Shown piece after piece: positions 19,770 to 64,000 of a DNA stretch of 64,000 nucleotides. The DNA is from Loxodes magnus (taxonomy: Eukaryota > Ciliophora > Karyorelictea > Loxodida > Loxodidae), in contig CAMPDV010002178.1 in the NCBI GenBank assembly GCA_946699065.1, forward strand, positions 1-64,000, given 5' to 3'. Both the position numbers and the translations under genes were made by a program. The notes beneath the pieces are model-generated. The model was not told where the DNA came from. It saw only the letters and a program-made list of their open reading frames with translations, and searched no databases. Position 1 is the stretch's first letter; every line of letters starts with the position of its first letter.

Positions 19770-19820
19770 TTTTTTTTGAAGTGAGAATACGAAAAATACC
19801 AGAGTGAGTTAACATTGTTT
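19766..19820 (+). repeat. Collapsed satellite monomer
   Basis: One monomer is badly shortened. The linker is reduced to TTTTTTTTGAAG, the ATTTTAAT core is lost so that ACGAAA runs straight into AATACC, and GTTAAC joins directly to the next copy's CATTG, removing the stretch that normally runs from AATGTATG through the A-tract. The flanking monomers are intact. This is one of only a few damaged sites in the first 51 kb and it lies just before the start of the 2.47-kb duplication. Confidence 0.85.
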
Positions 19821-19829
19821 TAGTTTTGA

Positions 19830-39214: not shown

Positions 39215-39345
39215 AGAGTGATAACAATGTATGAAAAATAGTTGAGTGATTTTTAAAGTACATTGTTTTAGTTTTGAAGTGAGAATACTAAATTTTAATA
39301 CCTGAGTTAACAATGTATGAAAAATAGTTTAGTGATTTTGAAAGT
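39215..39345 (+). repeat. Satellite patch with several small deletions
   Basis: Three successive monomers carry different deletions. GAGTGAGTTAAC is shortened to GAGTGATAAC near 39,217, the A-tract is gone so that AAAGTA joins CATTG near 39,257, and CCAGAGTGAGTT is shortened to CCTGAGTT at 39,301. The next monomer has TTTAGTGATTTTGAAAG with a GCATTG tract. The CCTGAG and TTTTGAAAG variants recur cleanly elsewhere (41,656, 42,685, 44,125, 44,511, 45,034, 46,384, 49,831), so they are inherited variants. The first two deletions look local. Confidence 0.85.
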
Positions 39346-42300
39346 AAAAAAAAGCATTGTTTTAGTTTTGAAGTGAGAATACGAAATTTTAATACCAGAG
39401 TGAGTTAACAATGTATGAAAAATAGTTGAGTGATTTTTAAAGTAAAAAAAAACATTGTTTTAGTTTTGAAGTGAGAAATTAAAATTTTAATACCAGAGTG
39501 AGTTAACAATGTATGAAAAATAGTTGAGTGATTTTTAAAGTAAAAAAAAAGCATTGTTTTAGTTTTGAAGTGAGAATACTAAATTTTAATACCAGAGTGA
39601 GTTAACAATGTATGAAAAATAGTTGAGTGATTTTTAAAGTAAAAAAAAACATTGTTTTAGTTTTGAAGTGAGAATACTAAATTTTAATACCAGAGTGAGT
39701 TAACAATGTATGAAAAATAGTTGAGTGATTTTTAAAGTAAAAAAAAACATTGTTTTAGTTTTGAAGTGAGAATACTAAATTTTAATACCAGAGTGAGTTA
39801 ACAATGTATGAAAAATAGTTGAGTGATTTTTAAAGTAAAAAAAAACATTGTTTTAGTTTTGAAGTGAGAATACTAAATTTTAATACCAGAGTGAGTTAAC
39901 AATGTATGAAAAATAGTTGAGTGATTTTTAAAGTAAAAAAAAACATTGTTTTAGTTTTGAAGTGAGAATACGAAATTTTAATACCAGAGTGAGTTAACAA
40001 TGTATGAAAAATAGTTGAGTGATTTTTAAAGTAAAAAAAAACATTGTTTTAGTTTTGAAGTGAGAATACTAAATTTTAATACCAGAGTGAGTTAACAATG
40101 TATGAAAAATAGTTGAGTGATTTTTAAAGTAAAAAAAAACATTGTTTTAGTTTTGAAGTGAGAAATTAAAATTTTAATACCAGAGTGAGTTAACAATGTA
40201 TGAAAAAAAGTTGAGTGATTTTTAAAGTAAAAAAAAAGTTTGTTTTAGTTTTGAAGTGAGAATACGAAATTTTAATACCAGAGTGAGTTAACAATGTATG
40301 AAAAATAGTTGAGTGATTTTTAAAGTAAAAAAAAGCATTGTTTTAGTTTTGAAGTGAGAATACGAAATTTTAATACCAGAGTGAGTTAACAATGTATGAA
40401 AAATAGTTGAGTGATTTTTAAAGTAAAAAAAAACATTGTTTTAGTTTTAAAGTGAGAATACTAAATTTTAATACCAGAGTGAGTTAACAATGTATGAAAA
40501 ATAGTTGAGTGATTTTTAAAGTAAAAAAAAACATTGTTTTAATTTTGAAGTGAGAAATTAAAATTTTAATACCAGAGTGAGTTAACAATGTATGAAAAAT
40601 AGTTGAGTGATTTTTAAAGTAAAAAAAAAGTTTGTTTTAGTTTTGAAGTGAGAATACGAAATTTTAATACCAGAGTGAGTTAACAATGTATGAAAAATAG
40701 TTGAGTGATTTTTAAAGTAAAAAAAAACATTGTTTTAGTTTTGAAGTGAGAAATTAAAATTTTATTACCAGAGTGAGTTAACAATGTATGAAAAATAGTT
40801 GAGTGATTTTTAAAGTAAAAAAAAAGCATTGTTTTAGTTTTGAAGTGAGAATACTAAATTTTAATACCAGAGTGAGTTAACAATGTATGAAAAATAGTTG
40901 AGTGATTTTTAAAGTAAAAAAAACATTGTTTTAGTTTTGAAGTGAGAATACGAAATTTTAATACCAGAGTGAGTTAACAATGTATGAAAAATAGTTGAGT
41001 GATTTTTAAAGTAAAAAAAAACATTGTTTTAGTTTTGAAGTGAGAATACTAAATTTTAATACCAGAGTGAGTTAACAATGTATGAAAAATAGTTGAGTGA
41101 TTTTTAAAGTAAAAAAAAACATTGTTTTAGTTTTGAAGTGAGAAATTAAAATTTTAATACCAGAGTGAGTTAACAATGTATGAAAAATAGTTGAGTGATT
41201 TTTAAAGTAAAAAAAAACATTGTTTTAGTTTTGAAGTGAGAAATTAAAATTTTAATACCAGAGTGAGTTAACAATGTATGAAAAATAGTTGAGTGATTTT
41301 TAAAGTAAAAAAAAACATTGTTTTAGTTTTGAAGTGAGAATACGAAATTTTAATACCAGAGTGAGTTAACAATGTATGAAAAATAGTTGAGTGATTTTTA
41401 AAGTAAAAAAAAACATTGTTTTAGTTTTGAAGTGAGAATACGAAATTTTAATACCAGAGTGAGTTAACAATGTATGAAAAATAGTTGAGTGATTTTTAAA
41501 GTAAAAAAAAACATTGTTTTAGTTTTGAAGTGAGAATACGAAATTTTAATACCAGAGTGAGTTAACAATGTATGAAAAATAGTTGAGTGATTTTCAAAGT
41601 AAAAAAAAACATTGTTTTTGATATGTTTTGAAGTGAGAATACTAAATTTTAATACCTGAGTTAACAATGTATGAAAAATAGTTGAGTGATTTTTAAAGTA
41701 AAAAAAAACATTGTTTTAGTTTTGAAGTGAGAATACGAAATTTTAATACCAGAGTGAGTTAACAATGTATGAAAAATAGTTGAGTGATTTTTAAAGTAAA
41801 AAAAAACATTGTTTTTGATATGTTTTGAAGTGAGAAATTAAAATTTTAATACCAGAGTGAGTTAACAATGTATGAAAAATAGTTGAGTGATTTTTAAAGT
41901 AAAAAAAAAGCATTGTTTTAGTTTTGAAGTGAGAATACTAAATTTTAATACCAGAGTGAGTTAACAATGTATGAAAAATAGTTGAGTGATTTTTAAAGTA
42001 AAAAAAAACATTGTTTTAGTTTTGAAGTGAGAATACGAAATTTTAATACCAGAGTGAGTTAACAATGTATGAAAAATAGTTGAGTGATTTTTAAAGTAAA
42101 AAAAAACATTGTTTTAGTTTTGAAGTGAGAATACGAAATTTTAATACCAGAGTGAGTTAACAATGTATGAAAAATAGTTGAGTGATTTTTAAAGTAAAAA
42201 AAAACATTGTTTTAGTTTTGAAGTGAGAATACTAAATTTTAATACCAGAGTGAGTTAACAATGTATGAAAAATAGTTGAGTGATTTTTAAAGTAAAAAAA

Positions 42301-45300
42301 AACATTGTTTTATATGTTTTGAAGTGAGAATACGAAATTCTAATACCAGAGTGAGTTAACAATGTATGAAAAATAGTTGAGTGATTTTTAAAGTAAAAAA
42401 AAACATTGTTTTTGATATGTTTTGAAGTGAGAATACTAAATTTTAATACCAGAGTGAGTTAACAATGTATGAAAAATAGTTGAGTGATTTTTAAAGTAAA
42501 AAAAAACATTGTTTTAGTTTTGAAGTGAGAAATTAAAATTTTAATACCAGAGTGAGTTAACAATGTATGAAAAATAGTTGAGTGATTTTTAAAGTAAAAA
42601 AAAACATTGTTTTAGTTTTGAAGTGAGAATACTAAATTTTAATACCAGAGTGAGTTAACAATGTATGAAAAATAGTTTAGTGATTTTGAAAGTAAAAAAA
42701 AGCATTGTTTTAGTTTTGAAGTGAGAATACTAAATTTTAATACCAGAGTGAGTTAACAATGTATGAAAAATAGTTGAGTGATTTTTAAAGTAAAAAAAAA
42801 CATTGTTTTAGTTTTGAAGTGAGAATACGAAATTTTAATACCAGAGTGAGTTAACAATGTATGAAAAATAGTTGAGTGATTTTTAAAGTAAAAAAAAACA
42901 TTGTTTTAGTTTTGAAGTGAGAATACGAAATTTTAATACCAGAGTGAGTTAACAATGTATGAAAAATAGTTGAGTGATTTTTAAAGTAAAAAAAAACATT
43001 GTTTTAGTTTTGAAGTGAGAATACTAAATTTTAATACCAGAGTGAGTTAACAATGTATGAAAAATAGTTGAGTGATTTTTAAAGTAAAAAAAAACATTGT
43101 TTTAGTTTTGAAGTGAGAATACTAAATTTTAATACCAGAGTGAGTTAACAATGTATGAAAAATAGTTGAGTGATTTTTAAAGTAAAAAAAAACATTGTTT
43201 TAGTTTTGAAGTGAGAATACGAAATTTTAATACCAGAGTGAGTTAACAATGTATGAAAAATAGTTGAGTGATTTTTAAAGTAAAAAAAAAGCATTGTTTT
43301 AGTTTTGAAGTGAGAATACTAAATTTTAATACCAGAGTGAGTTAACAATGTATGAAAAATAGTTGAGTGATTTTTAAAGTAAAAAAAAACATTGTTTTAG
43401 TTTTGAAGTGAGAATACTAAATTTTAATACCAGAGTGAGTTAACAATGTATGAAAAATAGTTGAGTGATTTTTAAAGTAAAAAAAAACATTGTTTTAGTT
43501 TTGAAGTGAGAATACGAAATTTTAATACCAGAGTGAGTTAACAATGTATGAAAAATAGTTGAGTGATTTTTAAAGTAAAAAAAAACATTGTTTTATATGT
43601 TTTGAAGTGAGAATACGAAATTCTAATACCAGAGTGAGTTAACAATGTATGAAAAATAGTTGAGTGATTTTTAAAGTAAAAAAAAACATTGTTTTTGATA
43701 TGTTTTGAAGTGAGAATACTAAATTTTAATACCAGAGTGAGTTAACAATGTATGAAAAATAGTTGAGTGATTTTTAAAGTAAAAAAAAACATTGTTTTAG
43801 TTTTGAAGTGAGAAATTAAAATTTTATTACCAGAGTGAGTTAACAATGTATGAAAAATAGTTGAGTGATTTTTAAAGTAAAAAAAAACATTGTTTTAGTT
43901 TTGAAGTGAGAATACGAAATTTTAATACCAGAGTGAGTTAACAATGTATGAAAAATAGTTGAGTGATTTTTAAAGTAAAAAAAAACATTGTTTTAGTTTT
44001 GAAGTGAGAATACGAAATTTTAATACCAGAGTGAGTTAACAATGTATGAAAAATAGTTGAGTGATTTTTAAAGTAAAAAAAAACATTGTTTTAGTTTTGA
44101 AGTGAGAATACTAAATTTTAATACCTGAGTTAACAATGTATGAAAAATAGTTGAGTGATTTTTAAAGTAAAAAAAAACATTGTTTTAGTTTTGAAGTGAG
44201 AATACTAAATTTTAATACCAGAGTGAGTTAACAATGTATGAAAAATAGTTGAGTGATTTTTAAAGTAAAAAAAAACATTGTTTTAGTTTTGAAGTGAGAA
44301 TACTAAATTTTAATACCAGAGTGAGTTAACAATGTATGAAAAATAGTTGAGTGATTTTTAAAGTAAAAAAAAACATTGTTTTAGTTTTGAAGTGAGAATA
44401 CTAAATTTTAATACCAGAGTGAGTTAACAATGTATGAAAAATAGTTGAGTGATTTTTAAAGTAAAAAAAAACATTGTTTTAGTTTTGAAGTGAGAATACT
44501 AAATTTTAATACCTGAGTTAACAATGTATGAAAAATAGTTGAGTGATTTTTAAAGTAAAAAAAAAGCATTGTTTTAGTTTTGAAGTGAGAATACGAAATT
44601 TTAATACCAGAGTGAGTTAACAATGTATGAAAAATAGTTGAGTGATTTTTAAAGTAAAAAAAAACATTGTTTTAGTTTTGAAGTGAGAATACTAAATTTT
44701 AATACCAGAGTGAGTAACAATGTATGAAAAATAGTTGAGTGATTTTTAAAGTAAAAAAAAACATTGTTTTAGTTTTGAAGTGAGAATACGAAATTTTAAT
44801 ACCAGAGTGAGTTAACAATGTATGAAAAATAGTTGAGTGATTTTTAAAGTAAAAAAAAACATTGTTTTTGATATGTTTTGAAGTGAGAATACTAAATTTT
44901 AATACCAGAGTGAGTTAACAATGTATGAAAAATAGTTGAGTGATTTTTAAAGTAAAAAAAAACATTGTTTTAGTTTTGAAGTGAGAATACGAAATTTTAA
45001 TACCAGAGTGAGTTAACAATGTATGAAAAATAGTTTAGTGATTTTGAAAGTAAAAAAAAGCATTGTTTTAGTTTTGAAGTGAGAATACTAAATTTTAATA
45101 CCAGAGTGAGTTAACAATGTATGAAAAATAGTTGAGTGATTTTTAAAGTAAAAAAAAACATTGTTTTAGTTTTGAAGTGAGAATACGAAATTTTAATACC
45201 AGAGTGAGTTAACAATGTATGAAAAATAGTTGAGTGATTTTTAAAGTAAAAAAAAACATTGTTTTAGTTTTGAAGTGAGAATACGAAATTTTAATACCAG

Positions 45301-48300
45301 AGTGAGTTAACAATGTATGAAAAATAGTTGAGTGATTTTTAAAGTAAAAAAAAACATTGTTTTATATGTTTTGAAGTGAGAATACGAAATTCTAATACCA
45401 GAGTGAGTTAACAATGTATGAAAAATAGTTGAGTGATTTTTAAAGTAAAAAAAAACATTGTTTTTGATATGTTTTGAAGTGAGAATACTAAATTTTAATA
45501 CCAGAGTGAGTTAACAATGTATGAAAAATAGTTGAGTGATTTTTAAAGTAAAAAAAAACATTGTTTTAGTTTTGAAGTGAGAAATTAAAATTTTAATACC
45601 AGAGTGAGTTAACAATGTATGAAAAATAGTTGAGTGATTTTTAAAGTAAAAAAAAAGCATTGTTTTAGTTTTGAAGTGAGAATACTAAATTTTAATACCA
45701 GAGTGAGTTAACAATGTATGAAAAATAGTTGAGTGATTTTTAAAGTAAAAAAAACATTGTTTTAGTTTTGAAGTGAGAATACGAAATTTTAATACCAGAG
45801 TGAGTTAACAATGTATGAAAAATAGTTGAGTGATTTTTAAAGTAAAAAAAAACATTGTTTTAGTTTTGAAGTGAGAAATTAAAATTTTAATACCAGAGTG
45901 AGTTAACAATGTATGAAAAATAGTTGAGTGATTTTTAAAGTAAAAAAAAAGCATTGTTTTAGTTTTGAAGTGAGAATACTAAATTTTAATACCAGAGTGA
46001 GTTAACAATGTATGAAAAATAGTTGAGTGATTTTTAAAGTAAAAAAAAACATTGTTTTAGTTTTGAAGTGAGAATACGAAATTTTAATACCAGACTGAGT
46101 TAACAATGTATGAAAAATAGTTGAGTGATTTTTAAAGTAAAAAAAAACATTGTTTTAGTTTTGAAGTGAGAATACTAAATTTTAATACCAGAGTGAGTTA
46201 ACAATGTATGAAAAATAGTTGAGTGATTTTTAAAGTAAAAAAAAACATTGTTTTAGTTTTGAAGTGAGAATACTAAATTTTAATACCAGAGTGAGTTAAC
46301 AATGTATGAAAAATAGTTGAGTGATTTTTAAAGTAAAAAAAAACATTGTTTTAGTTTTGAAGTGAGAATACTAAATTTTAATACCTGAGTTAACAATGTA
46401 TGAAAAATAGTTTAGTGATTTTGAAAGTAAAAAAAAGCATTGTTTTAGTTTTGAAGTGAGAATACTAAATTTTAATACCAGAGTGAGTTAACAATGTATG
46501 AAAAATAGTTGAGTGATTTTTAAAGTAAAAAAAAACATTGTTTTAGTTTTGAAGTGAGAATACGAAATTTTAATACCAGAGTGAGTTAACAATGTATGAA
46601 AAATAGTTGAGTGATTTTTAAAGTAAAAAAAACATTGTTTTAGTTTTGAAGTGAGAATACGAAATTTTAATACCAGAGTGAGTTAACAATGTATGAAAAA
46701 TAGTTGAGTGATTTTTAAAGTAAAAAAAAACATTGTTTTAGTTTTGAAGTGAGAATACGAAATTTTAATACCAGAGTGAGTTAACAATGTATGAAAAATA
46801 GTTGAGTGATTTTTAAAGTAAAAAAAAACATTGTTTTAGTTTTGAAGTGAGAATACGAAATTTTAATACCAGAGTGAGTTAACAATGTATGAAAAATAGT
46901 TGAGTGATTTTTAAAGTAAAAAAAAACATTGTTTTATATGTTTTGAAGTGAGAATACGAAATTCTAATACCAGAGTGAGTTAACAATGTATGAAAAATAG
47001 TTGAGTGATTTTTAAAGTAAAAAAAAACATTGTTTTTGATATGTTTTGAAGTGAGAATACTAAATTTTAATACCAGAGTGAGTTAACAATGTATGAAAAA
47101 TAGTTGAGTGATTTTTAAAGTAAAAAAAAACATTGTTTTAGTTTTGAAGTGAGAAATTAAAATTTTAATACCAGAGTGAGTTAACAATGTATGAAAAATA
47201 GTTGAGTGATTTTTAAAGTAAAAAAAAAGCATTGTTTTAGTTTTGAAGTGAGAATACTAAATTTTAATACCAGAGTGAGTTAACAATGTATGAAAAATAG
47301 TTGAGTGATTTTTAAAGTAAAAAAAACATTGTTTTAGTTTTGAAGTGAGAATACGAAATTTTAATACCAGAGTGAGTTAACAATGTATGAAAAATAGTTG
47401 AGTGATTTTTAAAGTAAAAAAAAACATTGTTTTAGTTTTGAAGTGAGAATACTAAATTTTAATACCAGAGTGAGTTAACAATGTATGAAAAATAGTTGAG
47501 TGATTTTTAAAGTAAAAAAAAACATTGTTTTAGTTTTGAAGTGAGAATACTAAATTTTAATACCAGAGTGAGTTAACAATGTATGAAAAATAGTTGAGTG
47601 ATTTTTAAAGTAAAAAAAAACATTGTTTTAGTTTTGAAGTGAGAATACGAAATTTTAATACCAGACTGAGTTAACAATGTATGAAAAATAGTTGAGTGAT
47701 TTTTAAAGTAAAAAAAAACATTGTTTTAGTTTTGAAGTGAGAATACTAAATTTTAATACCAGAGTGAGTTAACAATGTATGAAAAATAGTTTAGTGATTT
47801 TTAAAGTAAAAAAAAACATTGTTTTAGTTTTGAAGTGAGAATACTAAATTTTAATACCAGAGTGAGTTAACAATGTATGAAAAATAGTTGAGTGATTTTT
47901 AAAGTAAAAAAAAACATTGTTTTAGTTTTGAAGTGAGAATACTAAATTTTAATACCAGAGTGAGTTAACAATGTATGAAAAATAGTTGAGTGATTTTTAA
48001 AGTAAAAAAAAACATTGTTTTAGTTTTGAAGTGAGAATACTAAATTTTAATACCAGAGTGAGTTAACAATGTATGAAAAATAGTTGAGTGATTTTTAAAG
48101 TAAAAAAAAAGCATTGTTTTAGTTTTGAAGTGAGAATACGAAATTTTAATACCAGACTGAGTTAACAATGTATGAAAAATAGTTGAGTGATTTTTAAAGT
48201 AAAAAAAAACATTGTTTTAGTTTTGAAGTGAGAATACTAAATTTTAATACCAGAGTGAGTTAACAATGTATGAAAAATAGTTGAGTGATTTTTAAAGTAA

Positions 48301-51253
48301 AAAAAAACATTGTTTTTGATATGTTTTGAAGTGAGAATACTAAATTTTAATACCAGAGTGAGTTAACAATGTATGAAAAATAGTTGAGTGATTTTTAAAG
48401 TAAAAAAAAACATTGTTTTAGTTTTGAAGTGAGAATACGAAATTTTAATACCAGAGTGAGTTAACAATGTATGAAAAATAGTTGAGTGATTTTTAAAGTA
48501 AAAAAAAAGCATTGTTTTAGTTTTGAAGTGAGAATACTAAATTTTAATACCAGAGTGAGTTAACAATGTATGAAAAATAGTTGAGTGATTTTTAAAGTAA
48601 AAAAAAACATTGTTTTAGTTTTGAAGTGAGAATACGAAATTTTAATACCAGAGTGAGTTAACAATGTATGAAAAATAGTTGAGTGATTTTTAAAGTAAAA
48701 AAAAACATTGTTTTAGTTTTGAAGTGAGAATACGAAATTTTAATACCAGAGTGAGTTAACAATGTATGAAAAATAGTTGAGTGATTTTTAAAGTAAAAAA
48801 AAACATTGTTTTATATGTTTTGAAGTGAGAATACGAAATTCTAATACCAGAGTGAGTTAACAATGTATGAAAAATAGTTGAGTGATTTTTAAAGTAAAAA
48901 AAAACATTGTTTTTGATATGTTTTGAAGTGAGAATACTAAATTTTAATACCAGAGTGAGTTAACAATGTATGAAAAATAGTTGAGTGATTTTTAAAGTAA
49001 AAAAAAACATTGTTTTAGTTTTGAAGTGAGAAATTAAAATTTTAATACCAGAGTGAGTTAACAATGTATGAAAAATAGTTGAGTGATTTTTAAAGTAAAA
49101 AAAAACATTGTTTTAGTTTTGAAGTGAGAATACTAAATTTTAATACCAGAGTGAGTTAACAATGTATGAAAAATAGTTGAGTGATTTTTAAAGTAAAAAA
49201 AACATTGTTTTAGTTTTGAAGTGAGAATACGAAATTTTAATACCAGAGTGAGTTAACAATGTATGAAAAATAGTTGAGTGATTTTTAAAGTAAAAAAAAA
49301 CATTGTTTTAGTTTTGAAGTGAGAATACGAAATTTTAATACCAGAGTGAGTTAACAATGTATGAAAAATAGTTGAGTGATTTTTAAAGTAAAAAAAAACA
49401 TTGTTTTAGTTTTGAAGTGAGAATACGAAATTTTAATACCAGAGTGAGTTAACAATGTATGAAAAATAGTTGAGTGATTTTTAAAGTAAAAAAAAACATT
49501 GTTTTAGTTTTGAAGTGAGAATACGAAATTTTAATACCAGACTGAGTTAACAATGTATGAAAAATAGTTGAGTGATTTTTAAAGTAAAAAAAAACATTGT
49601 TTTAGTTTTGAAGTGAGAATACGAAATTTTAATACCAGAGTGAGTTAACAATGTATGAAAAATAGTTGAGTGATTTTTAAAGTAAAAAAAAACATTGTTT
49701 TAGTTTTGAAGTGAGAATACTAAATTTTAATACCAGAGTGAGTTAACAATGTATGAAAAATAGTTGAGTGATTTTTAAAGTAAAAAAAAACATTGTTTTA
49801 GTTTTGAAGTGAGAATACTAAATTTTAATACCTGAGTTAACAATGTATGAAAAATAGTTTAGTGATTTTGAAAGTAAAAAAAAGCATTGTTTTAGTTTTG
49901 AAGTGAGAATACTAAATTTTAATACCAGAGTGAGTTAACAATGTATGAAAAATAGTTGAGTGATTTTTAAAGTAAAAAAAAACATTGTTTTAGTTTTGAA
50001 GTGAGAAATTAAAATTTTAATACCAGAGTGAGTTAACAATGTATGAAAAATAGTTGAGTGATTTTTAAAGTAAAAAAAAAGCATTGTTTTAGTTTTGAAG
50101 TGAGAATACTAAATTTTAATACCAGAGTGAGTTAACAATGTATGAAAAATAGTTGAGTGATTTTTAAAGTAAAAAAAAACATTGTTTTAGTTTTGAAGTG
50201 AGAATACGAAATTTTAATACCAGAGTGAGTTAACAATGTATGAAAAATAGTTGAGTGATTTTTAAAGTAAAAAAAACATTGTTTTAGTTTTGAAGTGAGA
50301 AATTAAAATTTTAATACCAGAGTGAGTTAACAATGTATGAAAAATAGTTGAGTGATTTTTAAAGTAAAAAAAAACATTGTTTTAGTTTTGAAGTGAGAAT
50401 ACTAAATTTTAATACCAGAGTGAGTTAACAATGTATGAAAAATAGTTGAGTGATTTTTAAAGTAAAAAAAAACATTGTTTTAGTTTTGAAGTGAGAATAC
50501 TAAATTTTAATACCAGAGTGAGTTAACAATGTATGAAAAATAGTTGAGTGATTTTTAAAGTAAAAAAAAACATTGTTTTAGTTTTGAAGTGAGAAATTAA
50601 AATTTTAATACCAGAGTGAGTTAACAATGTATGAAAAATAGTTGAGTGATTTTTAAAGTAAAAAAAAACATTGTTTTAGTTTTGAAGTGAGAAATTAAAA
50701 TTTTAATACCAGAGTGAGTTAACAATGTATGAAAAAATGTTGAGTGATTTTTAAAGTAAAAAAAAACATTGTTTTAGTTTTGAAGTGAGAAATTAAAATT
50801 TTAATACCAGAGTGAGTTAACAATGTATGAAAAAAAGTTGAGTGATTTTTAAAGTAAAAAAAAAGTTTGTTTTAGTTTTGAAGTGAGAATACGAAATTTT
50901 AATACCAGAGTGAGTTAACAATGTATGAAAAATAGTTGAGTGATTTTTAAAGTAAAAAAAAACATTGTTTTAGTTTTGAAGTGAGAATACGAAATTTTAA
51001 TACCAGAGTGAGTTAACAATGTATGAAAAATAGTTGAGTGATTTTTAAAGTAAAAAAAAGCATTGTTTTAGTTTTGAAGTGAGAATACGAAATTTTAATA
51101 CCAGAGTGAGTTAACAATGTATGAAAAATAGTTGAGTGATTTTTAAAGTAAAAAAAAGCATTGTTTTAGTTTTGAAGTGAGAATACTAAATTTTAATACC
51201 AGAGTGAGTTAACAATGTATGAAAAATAGTTGAGTGATTTTTAAAGTAAAAAA
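39346..51253 (+). repeat. Diverse domain with TTCTAAT-tagged repeat blocks
   Basis: This domain mixes TACG, TACT and AATTA monomers with GCATTG, A8, TTGATATG, TATATG, CCTGAG and TTTTGAAAG variants. A rare base change in the core (ATTCTAATACC for ATTTTAATACC), always on a TATATG monomer, occurs at 42,338, 43,621, 45,390, 46,962 and 48,839. Each is followed by a TTGATATG+TACT monomer and then an AATTA monomer. The copies at 45,390 and 46,962 share further monomers (GCATTG+TACT, then A8+TACG) at a spacing of 1,572 bp, which is 16 monomers. The five tags therefore mark copies of one long higher-order unit with variable length. Confidence 0.85.
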
Positions 51254-53475
51254 AAAGCAGTTTTTGAGAATACTAATTTTAATACCTGAGTTAACAATTT
51301 GAGTTGAGTGATTTTTAAAGATTGTTTTAAATGAGAATAAAATTTTAATACCAGAGTGAGTTAACAATGTATGAAAAATAGTTGAGTGATTTTTAAAGTA
51401 AAAAAACATTGTTTTAGTTTTTGAGAAATTAAAATTTTAATACCAGAGTGAGTTAACAATTATGAAGTGAGATTTTTAAAGTAAAAAAAAACATTGTTTT
51501 AGTTTGAAGTGAAATTTTAATACCAGAGTGAGTTAACAATGTATGAAAAATAGTTGAGTGATTTTTAAAGTAAAAAAAAACATTGTTTTTATGTTTTGAA
51601 GTGAGAATACGAAATTTTAATACCAGAGTGAGTTAACAATGTATGAAAAATAGTTGAGTGATTTTTAAAGTAAAAAAAAACATTGTTTTAGTTTTGAAGT
51701 GAGAATACTAAATTTTTAATACCAGAGTGAGTTAACAATGTATGAAAAATAGTTGAGTGATTTTTTAAAGTAAAAAAAAACATTGTTTTAGTTTTGAAGT
51801 GAGAATACGAAATTTTAATACCAGAGTGAGTTAACAATGTATGAAAAATAGTTGAGTGATTTTTAAAGTAAAAAAAAACATTGTTTTAGTTTTGAAGTGA
51901 GAATACTAAATTTTAATACCAGAGTGAGTTAACAATGTATGAAAAATATGTTGAGTGATTTTTAAAGTAAAAAAAAACATTGTTTTAGTTTTGAAGTGAG
52001 AAATAAAATTTTAATACCAGAGTGAGTTAACAATGTATGAAAAATAGTTGAGTGATTTTTAAAGTAAAAAAAAAGTTTTTTTGATAGTTTTGAAGTGAGA
52101 ATACGAAATTTTAATACCAGAGTGAGTTAACAATGTATGAAAAATAGTTGAGTGATTTTTAAAGTAAAAAAAAAAACATTGTTTTAGTTTTGAAGTGAGA
52201 ATACGAAATTTTAATACCAGAATGAGTTAACAATGTATGAAAAATAGTTGAGTGATTTTTAAAGTAAAAAAAACATTGTTTTGATGTGTTTTGAAGTGAG
52301 AATACGAAATTTTAATACCAGAGTGAGTTAACAATGTATGAAAAATAGTTGAGTGATTTTTAAAGTAAAAAAAAAGCATTGTTTTAGTTTTGAAGTGAGA
52401 ATACTAAATTTTAATACCAGAGTGAGTTAACAATGTATGAAAAATAGTTGAGTGATTTTTAAAGTAAAAAAAAACATTGTTTTAGTTTTGAAGTGAGAAT
52501 ACTAAATTTTAATACCAGAGTGAGTTAACAATGTATGAAAAATAGTTGAGTGATTTTTAAAGTAAAAAAAAAAGTTTGTTTTAGTTTTGAAGTGAGAATA
52601 CGAAATTTTAATACCAGAGTGAGTTAACAATGTATGAAAAATAGTTGAGTGATTTTTAAGTAAAAAAAAACATTGTTTTAGTTTTGAAGTGAGAATACGA
52701 AATTTTAATACCAGAGTGAGTTAACAATGTATGAAAAATAGTTGAGATTTTTGATTTTGATAAAGTGAAAAAAAAATACCATAACAATGTATTTTGTGTA
52801 ATTTTTAAGTAAAAAAAAACATAGTTTTGAAGTGAGAATACTAAATTTTAATACCAGAGTGAGTTAACAATGTATGAAAAATAGTTGAGTGATTTTTAAA
52901 GTAAAAAAAAACATTGTTTTAGTTTTGAAGTGAGAAATTAAAATTTTAATACCAGAGTGAGTTAACAATGTATGAAAAATAGTTGAGTGATTTTTTAAAG
53001 TAAAAAAAAAGCATTGTTTTAGTTTTGAAGTGAGAATACTAAATTTTAATACCAGAGTGAGTTAACAATGTATGAAAAATAGTTGAGTGATTTTTAAAGT
53101 AAAAAAAACATTGTTTTAGTTTTGAAGTGAGAAATTAAAAATTTTAATACCAGAGTAGTTTATGAAGTGATTTTTAAAGTAAAAAAAAACATTGTTTTTG
53201 ATACGAAGTGAGAAATTTTAATACCAGAGTGAGTTAACAATGTATGAAAAATAGTTGAGTGATTTTTAAAGTAAAAAAAAACATTGTTTTAGTTTTGAAG
53301 TGAGAATACGAAATTTTAATACCAGAGTGAGTTAACAATGTATGAAAAAATAGTTGAGTGATTTTTAAAGTAAAAAAAAAACATTGTTTTAGTTTTGAAG
53401 TGAGAATACGAAATTTTAATACCAGAGTGAGTTAACAATGTATGAAAAAATTTGAGTGATTTTTTAAAGTAAAAA
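51254..53475 (+). repeat. Degenerate left arm of satellite palindrome
   Basis: Monomers here suffer many small deletions and homopolymer changes, for example at 51,254-51,350, 51,420-51,520, 52,741-52,830 and 53,150-53,215. Despite the damage, rare variants appear in mirrored order relative to the clean sequence right of 53,476: CGAAG next to GATA (53,200), AATTA (53,131 and 52,933), TGTGTAATTTTTAAGT (52,795), GATGTG linker (52,283), CCAGAATGAG (52,217), A11 tract (52,166) and GCAG with CCTGAG (51,257 and 51,285). The arm is about 160 bp shorter than its partner, so loss dominates. Beyond about 51.25 kb I could not extend the mirror match. Some monomers between the marks disagree (TACG against TAG), so the match is imperfect. 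Confidence 0.8.
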
Positions 53476-53507
53476 CAATGTTTTTTTTTACTTTAAAAAT
53501 CACTCAA
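53452..53507. other. Inversion point with short-loop hairpin
   Basis: The forward array stops inside an A-tract (A5 at 53,471-53,475) and the inverted array starts with CAATG at 53,476. The bases 53,452-53,475 can pair with 53,485-53,507, through TTGAGTGA, the T-run, AAAGT and AAAAA, with one bulged T in the left T6 run. The unpaired loop is about 9 nt (53,476-53,484, CAATGTTTT). A spacer this short at the centre of a long inverted repeat is typical of fold-back template switching or of a fold-back read artefact. I cannot separate these from sequence alone. Confidence 0.9.
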
Positions 53508-55860
53508 CTATTTTTCATACATTGTTAACTCACTCTGGTATTAAAATTTCGTATTCTCACTTCAAAACTAAAACAATGTTTTTTTTTACTTTAAAAATCA
53601 CTCAACTATTTTTCATACATTGTTAACTCACTCTGGTATTAAAATTTAGTATTCTCACTTCAAAACTAAAACAATGTTTTTTTTTACTTTAAAAATCACT
53701 CAACTATTTTTCATACATTGTTAACTCACTCTGGTATTAAAATTTAGTATTCTCACTTCGAAACATATCAAAAACAATGTTTTTTTTTACTTTAAAAATC
53801 ACTCAACTATTTTTCATACATTGTTAACTCACTCTGGTATTAAAATTTTAATTTCTCACTTCAAAACTAAAACAATGTTTTTTTTTACTTTAAAAATCAC
53901 TCAACTATTTTTCATACATTGTTAACTCACTCTGGTATTAAAATTTAGTATTCTCACTTCAAAACTAAAACAATGTTTTTTTTTACTTTAAAAATCACTC
54001 AACTATTTTTCATACATTGTTAACTCACTCTGGTATTAAAATTTTAATTTCTCACTTCAAAACTAAAACAATGTTTTTTTTTACTTTAAAAATCACTCAA
54101 CTATTTTTCATACATTGTTAACTCACTCTGGTATTAAAATTTCGTATTCTCACTTCAAAACTAAAACAATGTTTTTTTTTACTTAAAAATTACACAACTA
54201 TTTTTCATACATTGTTAACTCACTCTGGTATTAAAATTTCGTATTCTCACTTCAAAACATATCAAAAACAATGTTTTTTTTTACTTTAAAAATCACTCAA
54301 CTATTTTTCATACATTGTTAACTCACTCTGGTATTAAAATTTCGTATTCTCACTTCAAAACTAAAACAATGTTTTTTTTTACTTTAAAAATCACTCAACT
54401 ATTTTTCATACATTGTTAACTCACTCTGGTATTAAAATTTAGTATTCTCACTTCAAAACTAAAACAATGTTTTTTTTTACTTTAAAAATCACTCAACTAT
54501 TTTTCATACATTGTTAACTCACTCTGGTATTAAAATTTCGTATTCTCACTTCAAAACTAAAACAATGTTTTTTTTTACTTAAAAATTACACAACTATTTT
54601 TCATACATTGTTAACTCACTCTGGTATTAAAATTTAGTATTCTCACTTCAAAACTAAAACAATGTTTTTTTTTACTTTAAAAATCACTCAACTATTTTTC
54701 ATACATTGTTAACTCACTCTGGTATTAAAATTTCGTATTCTCACTTCAAAACACATCAAAAACAATGTTTTTTTTTACTTTAAAAATCACTCAACTATTT
54801 TTCATACATTGTTAACTCATTCTGGTATTAAAATTTCGTATTCTCACTTCAAAACTAAAACAATGTTTTTTTTTTACTTTAAAAATCACTCAACTATTTT
54901 TCATACATTGTTAACTCACTCTGGTATTAAAATTTCGTATTCTCACTTCAAAACATATCAAAAACAATGTTTTTTTTTACTTTAAAAATCACTCAACTAT
55001 TTTTCATACATTGTTAACTCACTCTGGTATTAAAATTTCGTATTCTCACTTCAAAACTAAAACAATGTTTTTTTTTACTTTAAAAATCACTCAACTATTT
55101 TTCATACATTGTTAACTCACTCTGGTATTAAAATTTAGTATTCTCACTTCAAAACTAAAACAATGTTTTTTTTTACTTTAAAAATCACTCAACTATTTTT
55201 CATACATTGTTAACTCACTCTGGTATTAAAATTTCGTATTCTCACTTCAAAACTAAAACAATGTTTTTTTTTACTTTAAAAATCACTCAACTATTTTTCA
55301 TACATTGTTAACTCACTCTGGTATTAAAATTTAGTATTCTCACTTCAAAACTAAAACAATGTTTTTTTTTACTTTAAAAATCACTCAACTATTTTTCATA
55401 CATTGTTAACTCACTCTGGTATTAAAATTTCGTATTCTCACTTCAAAACTAAAACAATGTTTTTTTTTACTTTAAAAATCACTCAACTATTTTTCATACA
55501 TTGTTAACTCACTCTGGTATTAAAATTTTAATTTATCACTTCAAAACTAAAACAATGTTTTTTTTTACTTTAAAAATCACTCAACTATTTTTCATACATT
55601 GTTAACTCACTCTGGTATTAAAATTTTAATTTCTCACTTCAAAACTAAAACAATGTTTTTTTTTACTTTAAAAATCACTCAACTATTTTTCATACATTGT
55701 TAACTCACTCTGGTATTAAAATTTCGTATTCTCACTTCAAAACTAAAACAATGTTTTTTTTTACTTTAAAAATCACTCAACTATTTTTCATACATTGTTA
55801 ACTCAGGTATTAAAATTTAGTATTCTCACTTCAAAACTAAAACAATGCTTTTTTTTTACT
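53476..55860 (-). repeat. Intact right arm of satellite palindrome
   Basis: This clean inverted stretch carries the partners of the left-arm marks at increasing distance from the centre: CTTCGAAACATATC (53,756), TAATTT (about 53,848 and 54,045), ACTTAAAAATTACACA (54,181), CACATC (54,752), CTCATTCTGG (54,817), T10 (54,866), CTCAGG (55,802) and the GC insert (55,848). Distances from 53,476 are slightly larger than on the left at every mark, as expected if the left arm has lost bases steadily. The monomers themselves are regular and full length. Confidence 0.8.
54570..55050 (-). repeat. Inverted-arm repeat block, copy 1 of 3
   Basis: The block contains, in plus-strand order, an ACTTAAAAATTACACA monomer (54,577), an ACACATC linker (54,751), a CTCATTCTGG monomer with a T10 tract, and an ACATATC linker (54,951). 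The same order occurs at 57,918/58,089/58,289 and 59,889/60,063/60,263. The spacing from ACACATC to ACATATC is 200 bp in all three. The linked rare variants show one ancestral block copied twice. Confidence 0.9.
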
Positions 55861-56740
55861 TTAAAAATCACTCAACTATTTTTCATACATTGTTAACTCA
55901 CTCTGGTATTAAAATTTCGTATTCTCACTTCAAAACTAAAACAATGCTTTTTTTTACTTTAAAAATCACTCAACTATTTTTCATACATTGTTAACTCACT
56001 CTGGTATTAAAATTTCGTATTCTCACTTCAAAACTAAAACAATGTTTTTTTTTACTTTAAAAATCACTCAACTATTTTTCATACATTGTTAACTCACTCT
56101 GGTATTAAAATTTAGTATTCTCACTTCAAAACTAAAACAATGTTTTTTTTTACTTTAAAAATCACTCAACTATTTTTCATACATTGTTAACTCACTCTGG
56201 TATTAAAATTTAGTATTCTCACTTCAAAACTAAAACAATGCTTTTTTTTTACTTTAAAAATCACTCAACTATTTTTCATACATTGTTAACTCACTCTGGT
56301 ATTAAAATTTCGTATTCTCACTTCAAAACTAAAACAATGTTTTTTTTTACTTTAAAAATCACTCAACTATTTTTCATACTTTGTTAACTCATTCTGGTAT
56401 TAAAATTTCGTATTCTCACTTCAAAACTAAAACAATGTTTTTTTTTACTTTAAAAATCACTCAACTATTTTTCATACATTGTTAACTCACTCTGGTATTA
56501 AAATTTAGTATTCTCACTTCAAAACTAAAACAATGCTTTTTTTTTACTTTAAAAATCACTCAACTATTTTTCATACATTGTTAACTCACTCTGGTATTAA
56601 AATTTCGTATTCTCACTTCAAAACTAAAACAATGTTTTTTTTTACTTTAAAAATCACTCAACTATTTTTCATACATTGTTAACTCACTCTGGTATTAAAA
56701 TTTCGTATTCTCACTTAAACTAAAACAAACTTTTTTTTTA
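55400..56740 (-). repeat. 1.3-kb duplication in inverted arm, copy 1
   Basis: A run of about 14 monomers matches 60,322-61,662 at an offset of 4,921 to 4,922 bp. Shared marks include two TAATTT monomers (55,527 and 55,625), CTCAGG+GC (55,800), TCG+GC, TCG, TAG, TAG+GC, the rare CTTTGTTAAC with CTCATTCTGG (56,379), TAG+GC (56,511) and the TTAAACTAAAACAAAC linker (56,714). One monomer differs (a GC insert only in the second copy near 60,674). The match ends after the TTAAAC monomer. Confidence 0.9.
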
Positions 56741-57909
56741 CTTTAAAAATCACTCAACTATTTTTCATACATTGTTAACTCACTCTGGTATTAAAATTTA
56801 GTATTCTCACTTCAAAACTAAAACAATGTTTTTTTTTACTTTAAAAATCACTCAACTATTTTTCATACATTGTTAACTCACTCTGGTATTAAAATTTCGT
56901 ATTCTCACTTCAAAACTAAAACAATGTTTTTTTTTACTTTAAAAATCACTCAACTATTTTTCATACATTGTTAACTCACTCTGGTATTAAAATTTCGTAT
57001 TCTCACTTCAAAACTAAAACAATGCTTTTTTTTTACTTTAAAAATCACTCAACTATTTTTCATACATTGTTAACTCACTCTGGTATTAAAATTTTAATTT
57101 CTCACTTCAAAACTAAAACAATGTTTTTTTTTACTTTAAAAATCACTCAACTATTTTTCATACATTGTTAACTCACTCTGGTATTAAAATTTCGTATTCT
57201 CACTTCAAAACTAAAACAATGTTTTTTTTTACTTTAAAAATCACTCAACTATTTTTCATACATTGTTAACTCACTCTGGTATTAAAATTTAGTATTCTCA
57301 CTTCAAAACTAAAACAATGTTTTTTTTTACTTTAAAAATCACTCAACTATTTTTCATACATTGTTAACTCACTCTGGTATTAAAATTTCGTATTCTCACT
57401 TCAAAACTAAAACAATGCTTTTTTTTTACTTTAAAAATCACTCAACTATTTTTCATACATTGTTAACTCACTCTGGTATTAAAATTTCGTATTCTCACTT
57501 CAAAACTAAAACAATGTTTTTTTTTACTTTAAAAATCACTCAACTATTTTTCATACATTGTTAACTCACTCTGGTATTAAAATTTAGTATTCTCACTTCA
57601 AAACTAAAACAATGTTTTTTTTTACTTTAAAAATCACTCAACTATTTTTCATACATTGTTAACTCACTCTGGTATTAAAATTTCGTATTCTCACTTCAAA
57701 ACTAAAACAATGTTTTTTTTTACTTTAAAAATCACTCAACTATTTTTCATACATTGTTAACTCACTCTGGTATTAAAATTTAGTATTCTCACTTCAAAAC
57801 TAAAACAATGTTTTTTTTTACTTTAAAAATCACTCAACTATTTTTCATACATTGTTAACTCACTCTGGTATTAAAATTTCGTATTCTCACTTCAAAACTA
57901 AAACAATGT

Positions 57910-58390
57910 TTTTTTTTACTTAAAAATTACACAACTATTTTTCATACATTGTTAACTCAGGTATTAAAATTTAGTATTCTCACTTCAAAACTAAAACAAT
58001 GCTTTTTTTTTACTTTAAAAATCACTCAACTATTTTTCATACATTGTTAACTCACTCTGGTATTAAAATTTCGTATTCTCACTTCAAAACACATCAAAAA
58101 CAATGTTTTTTTTTACTTTAAAAATCACTCAACTATTTTTCATACATTGTTAACTCATTCTGGTATTAAAATTTCGTATTCTCACTTCAAAACTAAAACA
58201 ATGTTTTTTTTTTACTTTAAAAATCACTCAACTATTTTTCATACATTGTTAACTCACTCTGGTATTAAAATTTCGTATTCTCACTTCAAAACATATCAAA
58301 AACAATGTTTTTTTTTACTTTAAAAATCACTCAACTATTTTTCATACATTGTTAACTCACTCTGGTATTAAAATTTCGTATTCTCACTTC
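57910..58390 (-). repeat. Inverted-arm repeat block, copy 2 of 3
   Basis: Partner of 54,570-55,050, offset 3,338 bp at the ACACATC mark. It differs by a CTCAGG-type deletion and a GC insert in the monomer after ACTTAAAAATTACACA, so the distance between the first two marks is 171 bp instead of 174 bp. Confidence 0.88.
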
Positions 58391-59879
58391 AAAACTAAAA
58401 CAATGTTTTTTTTTACTTTAAAAATCACTCAACTATTTTTCATACATTGTTAACTCACTCTGGTATTAAAATTTAGTATTCTCACTTCAAAACTAAAACA
58501 ATGTTTTTTTTTACTTTAAAAATCACTCAACTATTTTTCATACATTGTTAACTCACTCTGGTATTAAAATTTCGTATTCTCACTTCAAAACTAAAACAAT
58601 GTTTTTTTTTACTTTAAAAATCACTCAACTATTTTTCATACATTGTTAACTCACTCTGGTATTAAAATTTTAATTTCTCACTTCAAAACTAAAACAATGT
58701 TTTTTTTTACTTTAAAAATCACTCAACTATTTTTCATACATTGTTAACTCACTCTGGTATTAAAATTTTAATTTCTCACTTCAAAACTAAAACAATGTTT
58801 TTTTTTACTTTAAAAATCACTCAACTATTTTTCATACATTGTTAACTCACTCTGGTATTAAAATTTAGTATTCTCACTTCAAAACTAAAACAATGCTTTT
58901 TTTTTACTTTAAAAATCACTCAACTATTTTTCATACATTGTTAACTCACTCTGGTATTAAAATTTCGTATTCTCACTTCAAAACTAAAACAATGTTTTTT
59001 TTTACTTTAAAAATCACTCAACTATTTTTCATACATTGTTAACTCACTCTGGTATTAAAATTTCGTATTCTCACTTAAACTAAAACAAACTTTTTTTTTA
59101 CTTTAAAAATCACTCAACTATTTTTCATACATTGTTAACTCACTCTGGTATTAAAATTTAGTATTTTCACTTCAAAACATATCAAAAACAATGTTTTTTT
59201 TTACTTTAAAAATCACTCAACTATTTTTCATACATTGTTAACTCACTCTGGTATTAAAATTTAGTATTCTCACTTCAAAACTAAAACAATGTTTTTTTTT
59301 ACTTTAAAAATCACTCAACTATTTTTCATACATTGTTAACTCACTCTGGTATTAAAATTTCGTATTCTCACTTCAAAACTAAAACAATGTTTTTTTTTAC
59401 TTTAAAAATCACTCAACTATTTTTCATACATTGTTAACTCACTCTGGTATTAAAATTTCGTATTCTCACTTCAAAACTAAAACAATGTTTTTTTTTACTT
59501 TAAAAATCACTCAACTATTTTTCATACATTGTTAACTCACTCTGGTATTAAAATTTAGTATTCTCACTTCAAAACTAAAACAATGTTTTTTTTTACTTTA
59601 AAAATCACTCAACTATTTTTCATACATTGTTAACTCACTCTGGTATTAAAATTTCGTATTCTCACTTCAAAACTAAAACAATGTTTTTTTTTACTTTAAA
59701 AATCACTCAACTATTTTTCATACATTGTTAACTCACTCTGGTATTAAAATTTAGTATTCTCACTTCAAAACTAAAACAATGTTTTTTTTTACTTTAAAAA
59801 TCACTCAACTATTTTTCATACATTGTTAACTCACTCTGGTATTAAAATTTCGTATTCTCACTTCAAAACTAAAACAATG

Positions 59880-60360
59880 TTTTTTTTTACTTAAAAATTA
59901 CACAACTATTTTTCATACATTGTTAACTCACTCTGGTATTAAAATTTAGTATTCTCACTTCAAAACTAAAACAATGTTTTTTTTTACTTTAAAAATCACT
60001 CAACTATTTTTCATACATTGTTAACTCACTCTGGTATTAAAATTTCGTATTCTCACTTCAAAACACATCAAAAACAATGTTTTTTTTTACTTTAAAAATC
60101 ACTCAACTATTTTTCATACATTGTTAACTCATTCTGGTATTAAAATTTCGTATTCTCACTTCAAAACTAAAACAATGTTTTTTTTTTACTTTAAAAATCA
60201 CTCAACTATTTTTCATACATTGTTAACTCACTCTGGTATTAAAATTTCGTATTCTCACTTCAAAACATATCAAAAACAATGTTTTTTTTTACTTTAAAAA
60301 TCACTCAACTATTTTTCATACATTGTTAACTCACTCTGGTATTAAAATTTCGTATTCTCA
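59880..60360 (-). repeat. Inverted-arm repeat block, copy 3 of 3
   Basis: Partner of 54,570-55,050 at an offset of 5,312 bp and of 57,910-58,390 at 1,974 bp. Mark spacings (174 and 200 bp) equal those of copy 1, so copies 1 and 3 are the closest pair. Confidence 0.88.
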
Positions 60361-61662
60361 CTTCAAAACTAAAACAATGTTTTTTTTTACTTTAAAAATC
60401 ACTCAACTATTTTTCATACATTGTTAACTCACTCTGGTATTAAAATTTTAATTTCTCACTTCAAAACTAAAACAATGTTTTTTTTTACTTTAAAAATCAC
60501 TCAACTATTTTTCATACATTGTTAACTCACTCTGGTATTAAAATTTTAATTTCTCACTTCAAAACTAAAACAATGTTTTTTTTTACTTTAAAAATCACTC
60601 AACTATTTTTCATACATTGTTAACTCACTCTGGTATTAAAATTTCGTATTCTCACTTCAAAACTAAAACAATGCTTTTTTTTTACTTTAAAAATCACTCA
60701 ACTATTTTTCATACATTGTTAACTCAGGTATTAAAATTTAGTATTCTCACTTCAAAACTAAAACAATGCTTTTTTTTTACTTTAAAAATCACTCAACTAT
60801 TTTTCATACATTGTTAACTCACTCTGGTATTAAAATTTCGTATTCTCACTTCAAAACTAAAACAATGCTTTTTTTTTACTTTAAAAATCACTCAACTATT
60901 TTTCATACATTGTTAACTCACTCTGGTATTAAAATTTCGTATTCTCACTTCAAAACTAAAACAATGTTTTTTTTTACTTTAAAAATCACTCAACTATTTT
61001 TCATACATTGTTAACTCACTCTGGTATTAAAATTTAGTATTCTCACTTCAAAACTAAAACAATGTTTTTTTTTACTTTAAAAATCACTCAACTATTTTTC
61101 ATACATTGTTAACTCACTCTGGTATTAAAATTTAGTATTCTCACTTCAAAACTAAAACAATGCTTTTTTTTTACTTTAAAAATCACTCAACTATTTTTCA
61201 TACATTGTTAACTCACTCTGGTATTAAAATTTCGTATTCTCACTTCAAAACTAAAACAATGTTTTTTTTTACTTTAAAAATCACTCAACTATTTTTCATA
61301 CTTTGTTAACTCATTCTGGTATTAAAATTTCGTATTCTCACTTCAAAACTAAAACAATGTTTTTTTTTACTTTAAAAATCACTCAACTATTTTTCATACA
61401 TTGTTAACTCACTCTGGTATTAAAATTTAGTATTCTCACTTCAAAACTAAAACAATGCTTTTTTTTTACTTTAAAAATCACTCAACTATTTTTCATACAT
61501 TGTTAACTCACTCTGGTATTAAAATTTCGTATTCTCACTTCAAAACTAAAACAATGTTTTTTTTTACTTTAAAAATCACTCAACTATTTTTCATACATTG
61601 TTAACTCACTCTGGTATTAAAATTTCGTATTCTCACTTAAACTAAAACAAACTTTTTTTTTA
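60322..61662 (-). repeat. 1.3-kb duplication in inverted arm, copy 2
   Basis: Partner of 55,400-56,740, with CTTTGTTAAC at 61,301 and the TTAAAC linker near 61,635. The next monomer carries TATTTTC with an ACATATC linker, while the first copy has an ordinary TAG monomer. The TATTTTC version agrees instead with the copies near 59,158 and 62,214. Confidence 0.9.
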
Positions 61663-62419
61663 CTTTAAAAATCACTCAACTATTTTTCATACATTGTTAA
61701 CTCACTCTGGTATTAAAATTTAGTATTTTCACTTCAAAACATATCAAAAACAATGTTTTTTTTTACTTTAAAAATCACTCAACTATTTTTCATACATTGT
61801 TAACTCACTCTGGTATTAAAATTTAGTATTCTCACTTCAAAACTAAAACAATGTTTTTTTTTACTTTAAAAATCACTCAACTATTTTTCATACATTGTTA
61901 ACTCACTCTGGTATTAAAATTTAGTATTCTCACTTCAAAACTAAAACAATGCTTTTTTTTTACTTTAAAAATCACTCAACTATTTTTCATACATTGTTAA
62001 CTCACTCTGGTATTAAAATTTCGTATTCTCACTTCAAAACTAAAACAATGTTTTTTTTTACTTTAAAAATCACTCAACTATTTTTCATACATTGTTAACT
62101 CACTCTGGTATTAAAATTTCGTATTCTCACTTAAACTAAAACAAACTTTTTTTTTACTTTAAAAATCACTCAACTATTTTTCATACATTGTTAACTCACT
62201 CTGGTATTAAAATTTAGTATTTTCACTTCAAAACATATCAAAAACAATGTTTTTTTTTACTTTAAAAATCACTCAACTATTTTTCATACATTGTTAACTC
62301 ACTCTGGTATTAAAATTTAGTATTCTCACTTCAAAACTAAAACAATGTTTTTTTTTACTTTAAAAATCACTCAACTATTTTTCATACATTGTTAACTCAC
62401 TCTGGTATTAAAATTTCGT
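61430..62419 (-). repeat. 495-bp tandem duplication (5-mer)
   Basis: Two adjacent units of 495 bp run TAG+GC, TCG, TCG with TTAAACTAAAACAAAC, TAG with TATTTTC and ACATATC, and TAG. Marks at 61,632/62,127 and 61,719/62,214 keep the same spacing. A related single block lies at 58,870-59,260, 2,561 bp before the first unit, and a partial one near 56,511-56,800. Exact adjacency and near identity suggest a recent event. Confidence 0.9.
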
Positions 62420-64000
62420 ATTCTCACTTCAAAACTAAAACAATGCTTTTTTTTTACTTTAAAAATCACTCAACTATTTTTCATACATTGTTAACTCACT
62501 CTGGTATTAAAATTTCGTATTCTCACTTCAAAACTAAAACAATGTTTTTTTTTACTTTAAAAATCACTCAACTATTTTTCATACATTGTTAACTCACTCT
62601 GGTATTAAAATTTAGTATTCTCACTTCAAAACTAAAACAATGTTTTTTTTTACTTTAAAAATCACTCAACTATTTTTCATACATTGTTAACTCACTCTGG
62701 TATTAAAATTTAGTATTCTCACTTCAAAACTAAAACAATGTTTTTTTTTACTTTAAAAATCACTCAACTATTTTTCATACATTGTTAACTCACTCTGGTA
62801 TTAAAATTTAGTATTCTCACTTCAAAACTAAAACAATGCTTTTTTTTTACTTTAAAAATCACTCAACTATTTTTCATACATTGTTAACTCACTCTGGTAT
62901 TAAAATTTCGTATTCTCACTTCAAAACTAAAACAATGTTTTTTTTTACTTTAAAAATCACTCAACTATTTTTCATACATTGTTAACTCACTCTGGTATTA
63001 AAATTTCGTATTCTCACTTCAAAACATATCAAAAACAATGCTTTTTTTTACTTTAAAAATCACTCAACTATTTTTCATACATTGTTAACTCACTCTGGTA
63101 TTAAAATTTCGTATTCTCACTTCGAAACATATCAAAAACAATGTTTTTTTTTACTTTAAAAATCACTCAACTATTTTTCATACATTGTTAACTCACTCTG
63201 GTATTAAAATTTTAATTTCTCACTTCAAAACTAAAACAATGTTTTTTTTTACTTTAAAAATCACTCAACTATTTTTCATACATTGTTAACTCACTCTGGT
63301 ATTAAAATTTAGTATTCTCACTTCAAAACTAAAACAATGTTTTTTTTTACTTTAAAAATCACTCAACTATTTTTCATACATTGTTAACTCACTCTGGTAT
63401 TAAAATTTCGTATTCTCACTTCAAAACTAAAACAATGTTTTTTTTTACTTTAAAAATCACTCAACTATTTTTCATACATTGTTAACTCACTCTGGTATTA
63501 AAATTTTAATTTCTCACTTCAAAACTAAAACAATGTTTTTTTTTACTTTAAAAATCACTCAACTATTTTTCATACATTGTTAACTCACTCTGGTATTAAA
63601 ATTTAGTATTCTCACTTCAAAACTAAAACAATGCTTTTTTTTTACTTTAAAAATCACTCAACTATTTTTCATACATTGTTAACTCACTCTGGTATTAAAA
63701 TTTCGTATTCTCACTTCAAAACTAAAACAATGTTTTTTTTTACTTTAAAAATCACTCAACTATTTTTCATACATTGTTAACTCACTCTGGTATTAAAATT
63801 TAGTATTCTCACTTCAAAACTAAAACAATGTTTTTTTTTACTTTAAAAATCACTCAACTATTTTTCATACATTGTTAACTCACTCTGGTATTAAAATTTA
63901 GTATTCTCACTTCAAAACTAAAACAATGTTTTTTTTTACTTTAAAAATCACTCAACTATTTTTCATACATTGTTAACTCACTCTGGTATTAAAATTTAGT

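Follow-up and report, generated by a model that had tools for sequence, protein, structure and literature searches.

A strand switch in a satellite array of Loxodes magnus that most likely reflects a technical fold-back join

The window analysed here comprises 64,000 nucleotides of DNA of the karyorelictean ciliate Loxodes magnus (GenBank assembly GCA_946699065.1, contig CAMPDV010002178.1, positions 1 to 64,000), and the whole of it is a single AT-rich satellite with a 98-bp monomer, as determined with Tandem Repeats Finder (TRF) and by cutting the array with wrap-around alignment. The latter replaced an anchor-based cut, which left multiples of the monomer. The array is oriented + over 1-53,475 (542 monomers or pieces; the left arm) and inverted over 53,476-64,000 (108 monomers or pieces; the right arm). 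A fuzzy anchor gives 467 forward matches up to 53,421 and 99 reverse matches from 53,509, the orientations being unmixed on either side, and the sign of the GC skew flips at the strand switch, which is the only one within the window. Once long A-tracts are equalised, 103 monomer types can be distinguished. The subject of this analysis, which covers the contig sequence, is the strand switch itself, hereafter the turn. The features discussed below are collected in Table 1.

Table 1. Coordinates of the features around the strand switch (positions in the window)
Feature	Position	Strand	Basis or remark
Satellite array, 98-bp monomers	1..50896	+	Clean except for the noisy stretch 19,765-21,103; TRF, monomer cut
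Possible clean outer mirror end, types t0-t6(A8)-t4	50897..51190	+	1 edit against 55,816-56,110
Left copy of the mirrored stretch, error-rich	51191..53475	+	Mirror is best placement; 16/23 monomers are singletons
TTTTGATGTG, sole left-arm copy	52279..52288	+	Right partner read from 54,761 towards 54,752
TGTGTAATTTTTAAGT, sole left-arm copy	52795..52810	+	Right partner read from 54,196 towards 54,181
Turn, AAAGTAAAAA / CAATGTTTTTTTTTACTTT	53466..53494	.	Sequence, alignments
Right copy of the mirrored stretch, clean	53476..55914	-	2/23 monomers are singletons in 53,547-55,815
Remainder of the inverted array	56111..64000	-	Mirrored places are not the best match of the left array

The two sides of the turn are copies of one sequence over about 2.3-2.6 kb; an earlier note on this DNA had concluded from variants that recur in mirrored order that the arms are copies. 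When the left segment 50,897-53,475 is used as the query, the mirror is the best of 572 placements; neighbouring mirror placements score 4646 and 4568, the next non-mirror place 4520, and the rest have a mean of 4400 with a standard deviation of 53. The slightly shorter segment 51,176-53,475 has 188 edits at the mirror and 195 at the best other place, and none of 84 right-arm or 499 left-arm placements is better. For 51,343-53,475, the mirror has the fewest substitutions of 579 placements (9-10, against 11 at the next other place and a median of 23) and also the fewest events (55-58, against 60 and a median of 81).

The opposite query direction gives the opposite answer. The earlier note had proposed aligning the right arm to the left and abandoning the mirror if it fitted no better than arbitrary satellite positions; in a form close to that proposal, with the right arm as the query, the mirror comes almost last (ranks 564-569 among 570 placements, counting from 0), and for the first 500 bases of the right arm 520 of 540 places beat it. 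By the note's own standard this would refute the mirror, but we judge the failure misleading, a false negative. The left copy carries a heavy load of insertions and deletions (indels), which penalises every comparison with that copy and hence ranks the mirror low when the right arm is the query, yet leaves the best-fitting partner of the left copy itself unchanged, so that the two query directions disagree. Short pieces of the left copy may also fit better elsewhere: for the 300 bases at 53,176-53,475, the mirror is surpassed by 20 of 104 placements in the right arm and by 91 of 539 in the left, and the piece 52,426-52,725 likewise prefers other places to the mirror.

The variants named in the earlier note do occur where it had placed them, or within a few bases, on both sides of 53,476. 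Their supposed rarity stands for three of them. The first, TGTGTAATTTTTAAGT, has one copy in the 53,475-base left arm (at 52,795) and four in the right arm; the second, TTTTGATGTG, has one and three, respectively; and the third, an A11 tract, is unique. The former two are diagnostic, and their left-arm copies sit near the mirrored place of right-arm copies. The other marks are not rare: the AATTA variant (searched as GAGAAATTAAAA) is found 57 times in the left arm and 10 times in the right, AGAATGAG 12 and 5 times, CCTGAG 7 and 3 times, and TTTCGAAGTG 9 and 2 times. The step from type t4 to t6 beside a CCTGAG unit occurs once in the left arm, at the mirrored place, and twice in the right arm. 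All 23 of the 20-mers with two or more right-arm copies and a single left-arm copy lie inside 50,897-53,475, in only four clusters; we did not retain this count as support for the mirror, as two of the four clusters (near 52,655 and 53,363) look like homopolymer errors that resemble right-arm variants.

The two copies differ strikingly in quality. Between 51,191 and 53,413 in the left arm, 16 of 23 monomers are of singleton types. Fisher tests compared this with the remainder of that arm, where 39 of 517 are singletons, with the right partner (2 of 23) and with the array beyond the partner (2 of 83); junction monomers and pieces cut by the window ends are omitted from these counts. Elsewhere in the left arm singletons never exceed 6 per 24 monomers. 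Six of the 23 left-copy monomers fall outside the 96-104 bp range, the damaged units measuring 66, 74, 80, 86, 92 and 143 bp. Homopolymers are affected as well: T6 replaces T5 in 3 of 22 tracts of the noisy part but never in the remaining left arm (0 of 512) or in the right arm (0 of 103), and tracts of A10 or longer make up 3 of 23 in the noisy part and 1 of 517 in the remaining left arm. The right arm holds three A10 tracts, one of which, at 54,877, faces the left A11.

Missing bases prevail among the differences. Compared with its partner, the segment 51,343-53,475 has 10 substitutions, 130 bases deleted in 33 events and 17 bases inserted in 16. When the right partner is placed at six other positions, the three best and three mid-ranking ones, there are 12-27 substitutions, 12-18 deletion events and 8-20 insertion events. 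If gaps are made cheap, only four single-base substitutions are left, all of them at a G/T site that is variable throughout the array. With 2,285 bases against 2,439, the left copy falls 154 bases short of its best partner. As a control, 24 windows of the left array were each aligned to every third placement; deleted bases at the best match number 0-35 in 21 of them and 57, 103 and 110 in the other three, and the values 57 and 103 come from a noisy stretch near 20-22 kb, to which we return below. The noise begins at the turn, is confined to one arm and ends at about 51,190. Accuracy is lost, through missed bases, in one arm only, as expected of a fold-back artefact. Several monomers had been said in the earlier note to disagree between the marks, and they do; mostly these are bursts of missing bases and homopolymer slips, limited to the left copy, and they look like poor base calling. 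Real disagreements are found at the G/T site, with its four substitutions, and in the monomers around 52,450-52,602.

At the turn, the left copy is without 9 bases that the right copy has. Approached from the right, the strand passes from AAAGTAAAAAAAAACATTG into TTTTTACTTT, at a point where TTTTAG stands in the native array; four T are therefore common to the turn and the native sequence, and nine bases of the complement are left out. A possible reading of these letters is a 4-nt TTTT overlap between the native sequence ending in CATTGTTTT and the copied TTTTTACTTT, and a 3' end in CATTGTTTT could pair with an A-tract to prime the turn. The reverse-complement segment starts within about 200 bases of the turn, again in the manner of artefacts. 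The hairpin fold of 53,446-53,506 has a z-score of -6.0, which is expected of any strand switch.

The mirror has an outer edge. Among four right ends tried, the left segment 51,191-53,475 pairs best with 53,476-55,914. Next to it, the piece 50,897-51,190 finds only 55,816-56,110 at no more than 1 edit among 107 right and 545 left bins, and 12 bins, the best included, at no more than 2 edits. Both pairings use the right monomer 55,816-55,914, so the left arm carries this monomer twice, which amounts to a one-monomer slip at 51,191. With such a slip, the mirror perhaps continues to 50,897 on the left and 56,110 on the right; the alignments do not give a smooth mirror to 50,897, as the best partner of the noisy part ends at 55,914 and the outer piece overlaps it by one right monomer. 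Further out the match is lost. For 50,397-50,896, 22 of 102 placements in the right arm and 61 of 531 in the left beat the mirrored place; for 48,397-50,896 the counts are 8 of 82 and 65 of 470, and for six left pieces in 45,897-50,896 they are 0-51 in the right arm and 31-205 in the left. For 48,897-49,896 no right placement beats the mirror, but 31 of 516 left ones do, and some windows between 49,276 and 50,325 have few or no better right-arm placements; we treat these weakly beaten windows as array similarity and not as mirror. That the arms as wholes are copies of each other, as the earlier note took them to be, is not supported: the clear mirror ends at 51,191 and 55,914, or possibly at the outer pair of positions, and beyond that point a second join is needed.

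In our view, the strand switch most likely arose through a technical fold-back join and is probably an assembly artefact. A fragment of the right-hand array ending in A9-CATTG-TTTT-3' would snap back, its TTTT pairing with an A-tract, and would be extended into a hairpin-capped molecule; alternatively, a palindromic molecule may have formed during amplification, and palindromic reads from whole-genome amplification are reportedly the subject of one paper (PMC13265396). A long read would then follow the clean strand as far as 53,476, pass through the turn and return on the complement from 53,475 to about 51,191, this second pass being badly called, and the assembler would join the noisy tail to other satellite sequence near 51,191-50,897. 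A fold-back read with a poor second half accounts in one step for the mirror, the start of the noise at the turn, its one-sidedness, the preponderance of missing bases and the 154-base shortfall. The end of the noise by 51,190 suggests that only the mirrored stretch was without other reads, and the one-monomer slip at the very edge of the noise looks like a stitch.

Both halves of this scheme have precedents. Fold-back artefacts, described as duplicated inversions, are known from long reads (Heinz, Meyerson and Li 2026, PMC12870357), whose authors, citing another study, put their share at typically 1-4% of genomic reads and occasionally at 20-30%. As in such artefact reads, which often have little unmatched sequence at the turn, the sequence here is followed by its own reverse complement after a short turn; unlike them, the structure is known here from an assembled contig and not from a read. 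In nanopore reads of inverted duplicates, the second arm is of low quality and shortened, according to Spealman, Burrell and Gresham 2020 (PMC7229812). The likeness includes noise that starts from the junction, the involvement of one arm, missed bases and a shorter arm. A difference is that similar noise occurs here once in a direct duplicate. A biological parallel is provided by satellites of Tribolium madens, for which PMC13081366 describes macro-dyad symmetries and array-scale inversions at conserved, recurrent sites. There, too, one satellite array switches orientation at a defined point, and, if the join in Loxodes were real, the window would hold long inverted subarrays of the macro-dyad kind, 53.5 kb in + and 10.5 kb inverted. 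However, the subarrays of T. madens span many kb and their sites are conserved and recurrent, whereas here there is one site in the window, with one error-rich arm and a mirror of about 2.3-2.6 kb.

Two oppositely oriented arms copied from one sequence over about 2.3-2.6 kb are also what a genuine inverted duplication within the satellite would look like, and this is the alternative that we take most seriously, even if we consider it unlikely. It would have arisen by fold-back priming or template switching at the near-palindrome AACAWTGTT beside the A-tract, and the left copy would be degraded only by one-sided long-read errors. A mirror with a short turn is what template-switch inverted duplications are expected to leave, and noise on one side is expected, too, if the few crossing reads all came from the right. 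Yet such a duplication requires two rearrangements, one at the turn and one at the outer join, and also requires that no clean read entered from the left, even though the adjoining array is clean; reads entering from there should have produced a clean left arm. A real inverted array read from both sides should have noise in both arms or have it corrected in both. Moreover, as the whole satellite is complementary to the inverted arm, the entire second arm could pair, and the noise should have passed 51,190 instead of stopping within 2.3 kb. In the same way, the need for a second join and, indirectly, the one-sided, deletion-rich noise speak against the inversion within a chromosomal array that the earlier note favoured; such an inversion is not supported, and a fold-back read fits better. 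A related proposal, in our view quite doubtful, is that fold-back takes place in the organism, with recurrent snap-back priming at the A9-CATTG-TTTT hairpin, present in many monomers, seeding inverted duplications and thereby driving the orientation switches; should the artefact interpretation fail, a candidate hairpin for priming satellite inversions would be part of the monomer itself.

The lopsided noise could in principle be true sequence decay. Divergence near array edges is known in general, and unusual truncated monomers cluster beside the turn, as they might if an old, real inversion had its left side decayed by mutation at the array boundary. We hold this reading to be highly improbable: the decay affects one arm only and takes the form of clustered small deletions and homopolymer slips with few substitutions, whereas the six control placements have more substitutions and balanced indels. 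We give hardly any credence to a head-to-head junction of two unrelated parts of the array, with the marks mirrored by chance: the low rank of the mirror with the right arm as the query, the abundance of several named marks in the array and the closeness of other places (195 versus 188 edits) are all compatible with it, but the left query has its best of 572 placements and its fewest substitutions of 579 at the mirror, two variants otherwise limited to the right arm lie near their mirrored places, and the left arm has the t4-t6 step by a CCTGAG unit nowhere but at the mirrored place. Fold-back, as the earlier note had held, is therefore a better account of the switch than two unrelated arrays fused end to end, given copies over about 2.3-2.6 kb. 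Finally, a natural closed hairpin end of linear DNA, i.e., a hairpin telomere that caps the right-hand array and was read through, would look identical to a snap-back hairpin and would suit the turn loop of at most about 9 bases; nothing else in the window points to a chromosome end, no further example is present there, the snap-back end of a fragment accounts for the same data, and the chance that such a telomere is involved appears vanishingly small.

Several observations weigh against a technical join. The margins of the mirror over the runners-up are modest (9 versus 11 substitutions, 188 versus 195 edits), and the four substitutions at the G/T site and the monomers near 52,450-52,602 are not obviously base-calling noise. 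If the mirror reaches 50,897, its last 294 bases are clean, and the tail of a raw read would need correction by other reads there. Array-scale inversions do occur in satellites, as PMC13081366 reports, which also favours a genuine duplication. Lastly, similar bursts of deletions are seen at 19,765-21,103, in a direct duplicate with no fold-back; therefore, the noise is not specific to inverted DNA, and the account based on nanopore hairpins becomes less specific. If the technical join is nevertheless correct, the orientation switch should not be counted as satellite biology, and the locus would be an example of a fold-back read entering the assembly of a repeat. A one-sided excess of deletions beside a strand switch would then be a usable warning sign even where reads are not at hand.

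Two direct copies, each of about 2.5 kb, lie side by side at about 19,699-22,216 and 22,217-24,788, and the second noisy stretch belongs to the left-hand copy. Between 19,643 and 22,000 there is one substitution along with two bursts of missing bases (19,765-19,811 and 20,919-21,103). The pair of copies at 19,699-24,788 looks like either a tandem duplication of recent origin or a false one created at a poorly supported join, and we take the noise at 19,765-21,103 as a sign of other badly supported joins in the contig.

Some further features of the array may be mentioned. A 25-base core of the satellite has zero exact matches in the searched collections of genome contigs and viral contigs, and 1,001 bases of the satellite have zero matches in a plasmid collection. 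The right arm (53,476-64,000) contains internal near-copies, for example 60,101-61,600 versus 55,101-56,700, with 3 substitutions. Types t21, t28 and t29 have 3-4 copies each in the right arm, and none of them occurs in the left arm as far as 51,190. The composition of the left array shifts along its length, as types t3, t5 and t14 are restricted to the first 15 kb of the window (1-15,000). At 39,205-39,386, an 88-bp monomer that has lost most of its A-tract is followed by a 94-bp CCTGAG monomer, and both are of singleton types.

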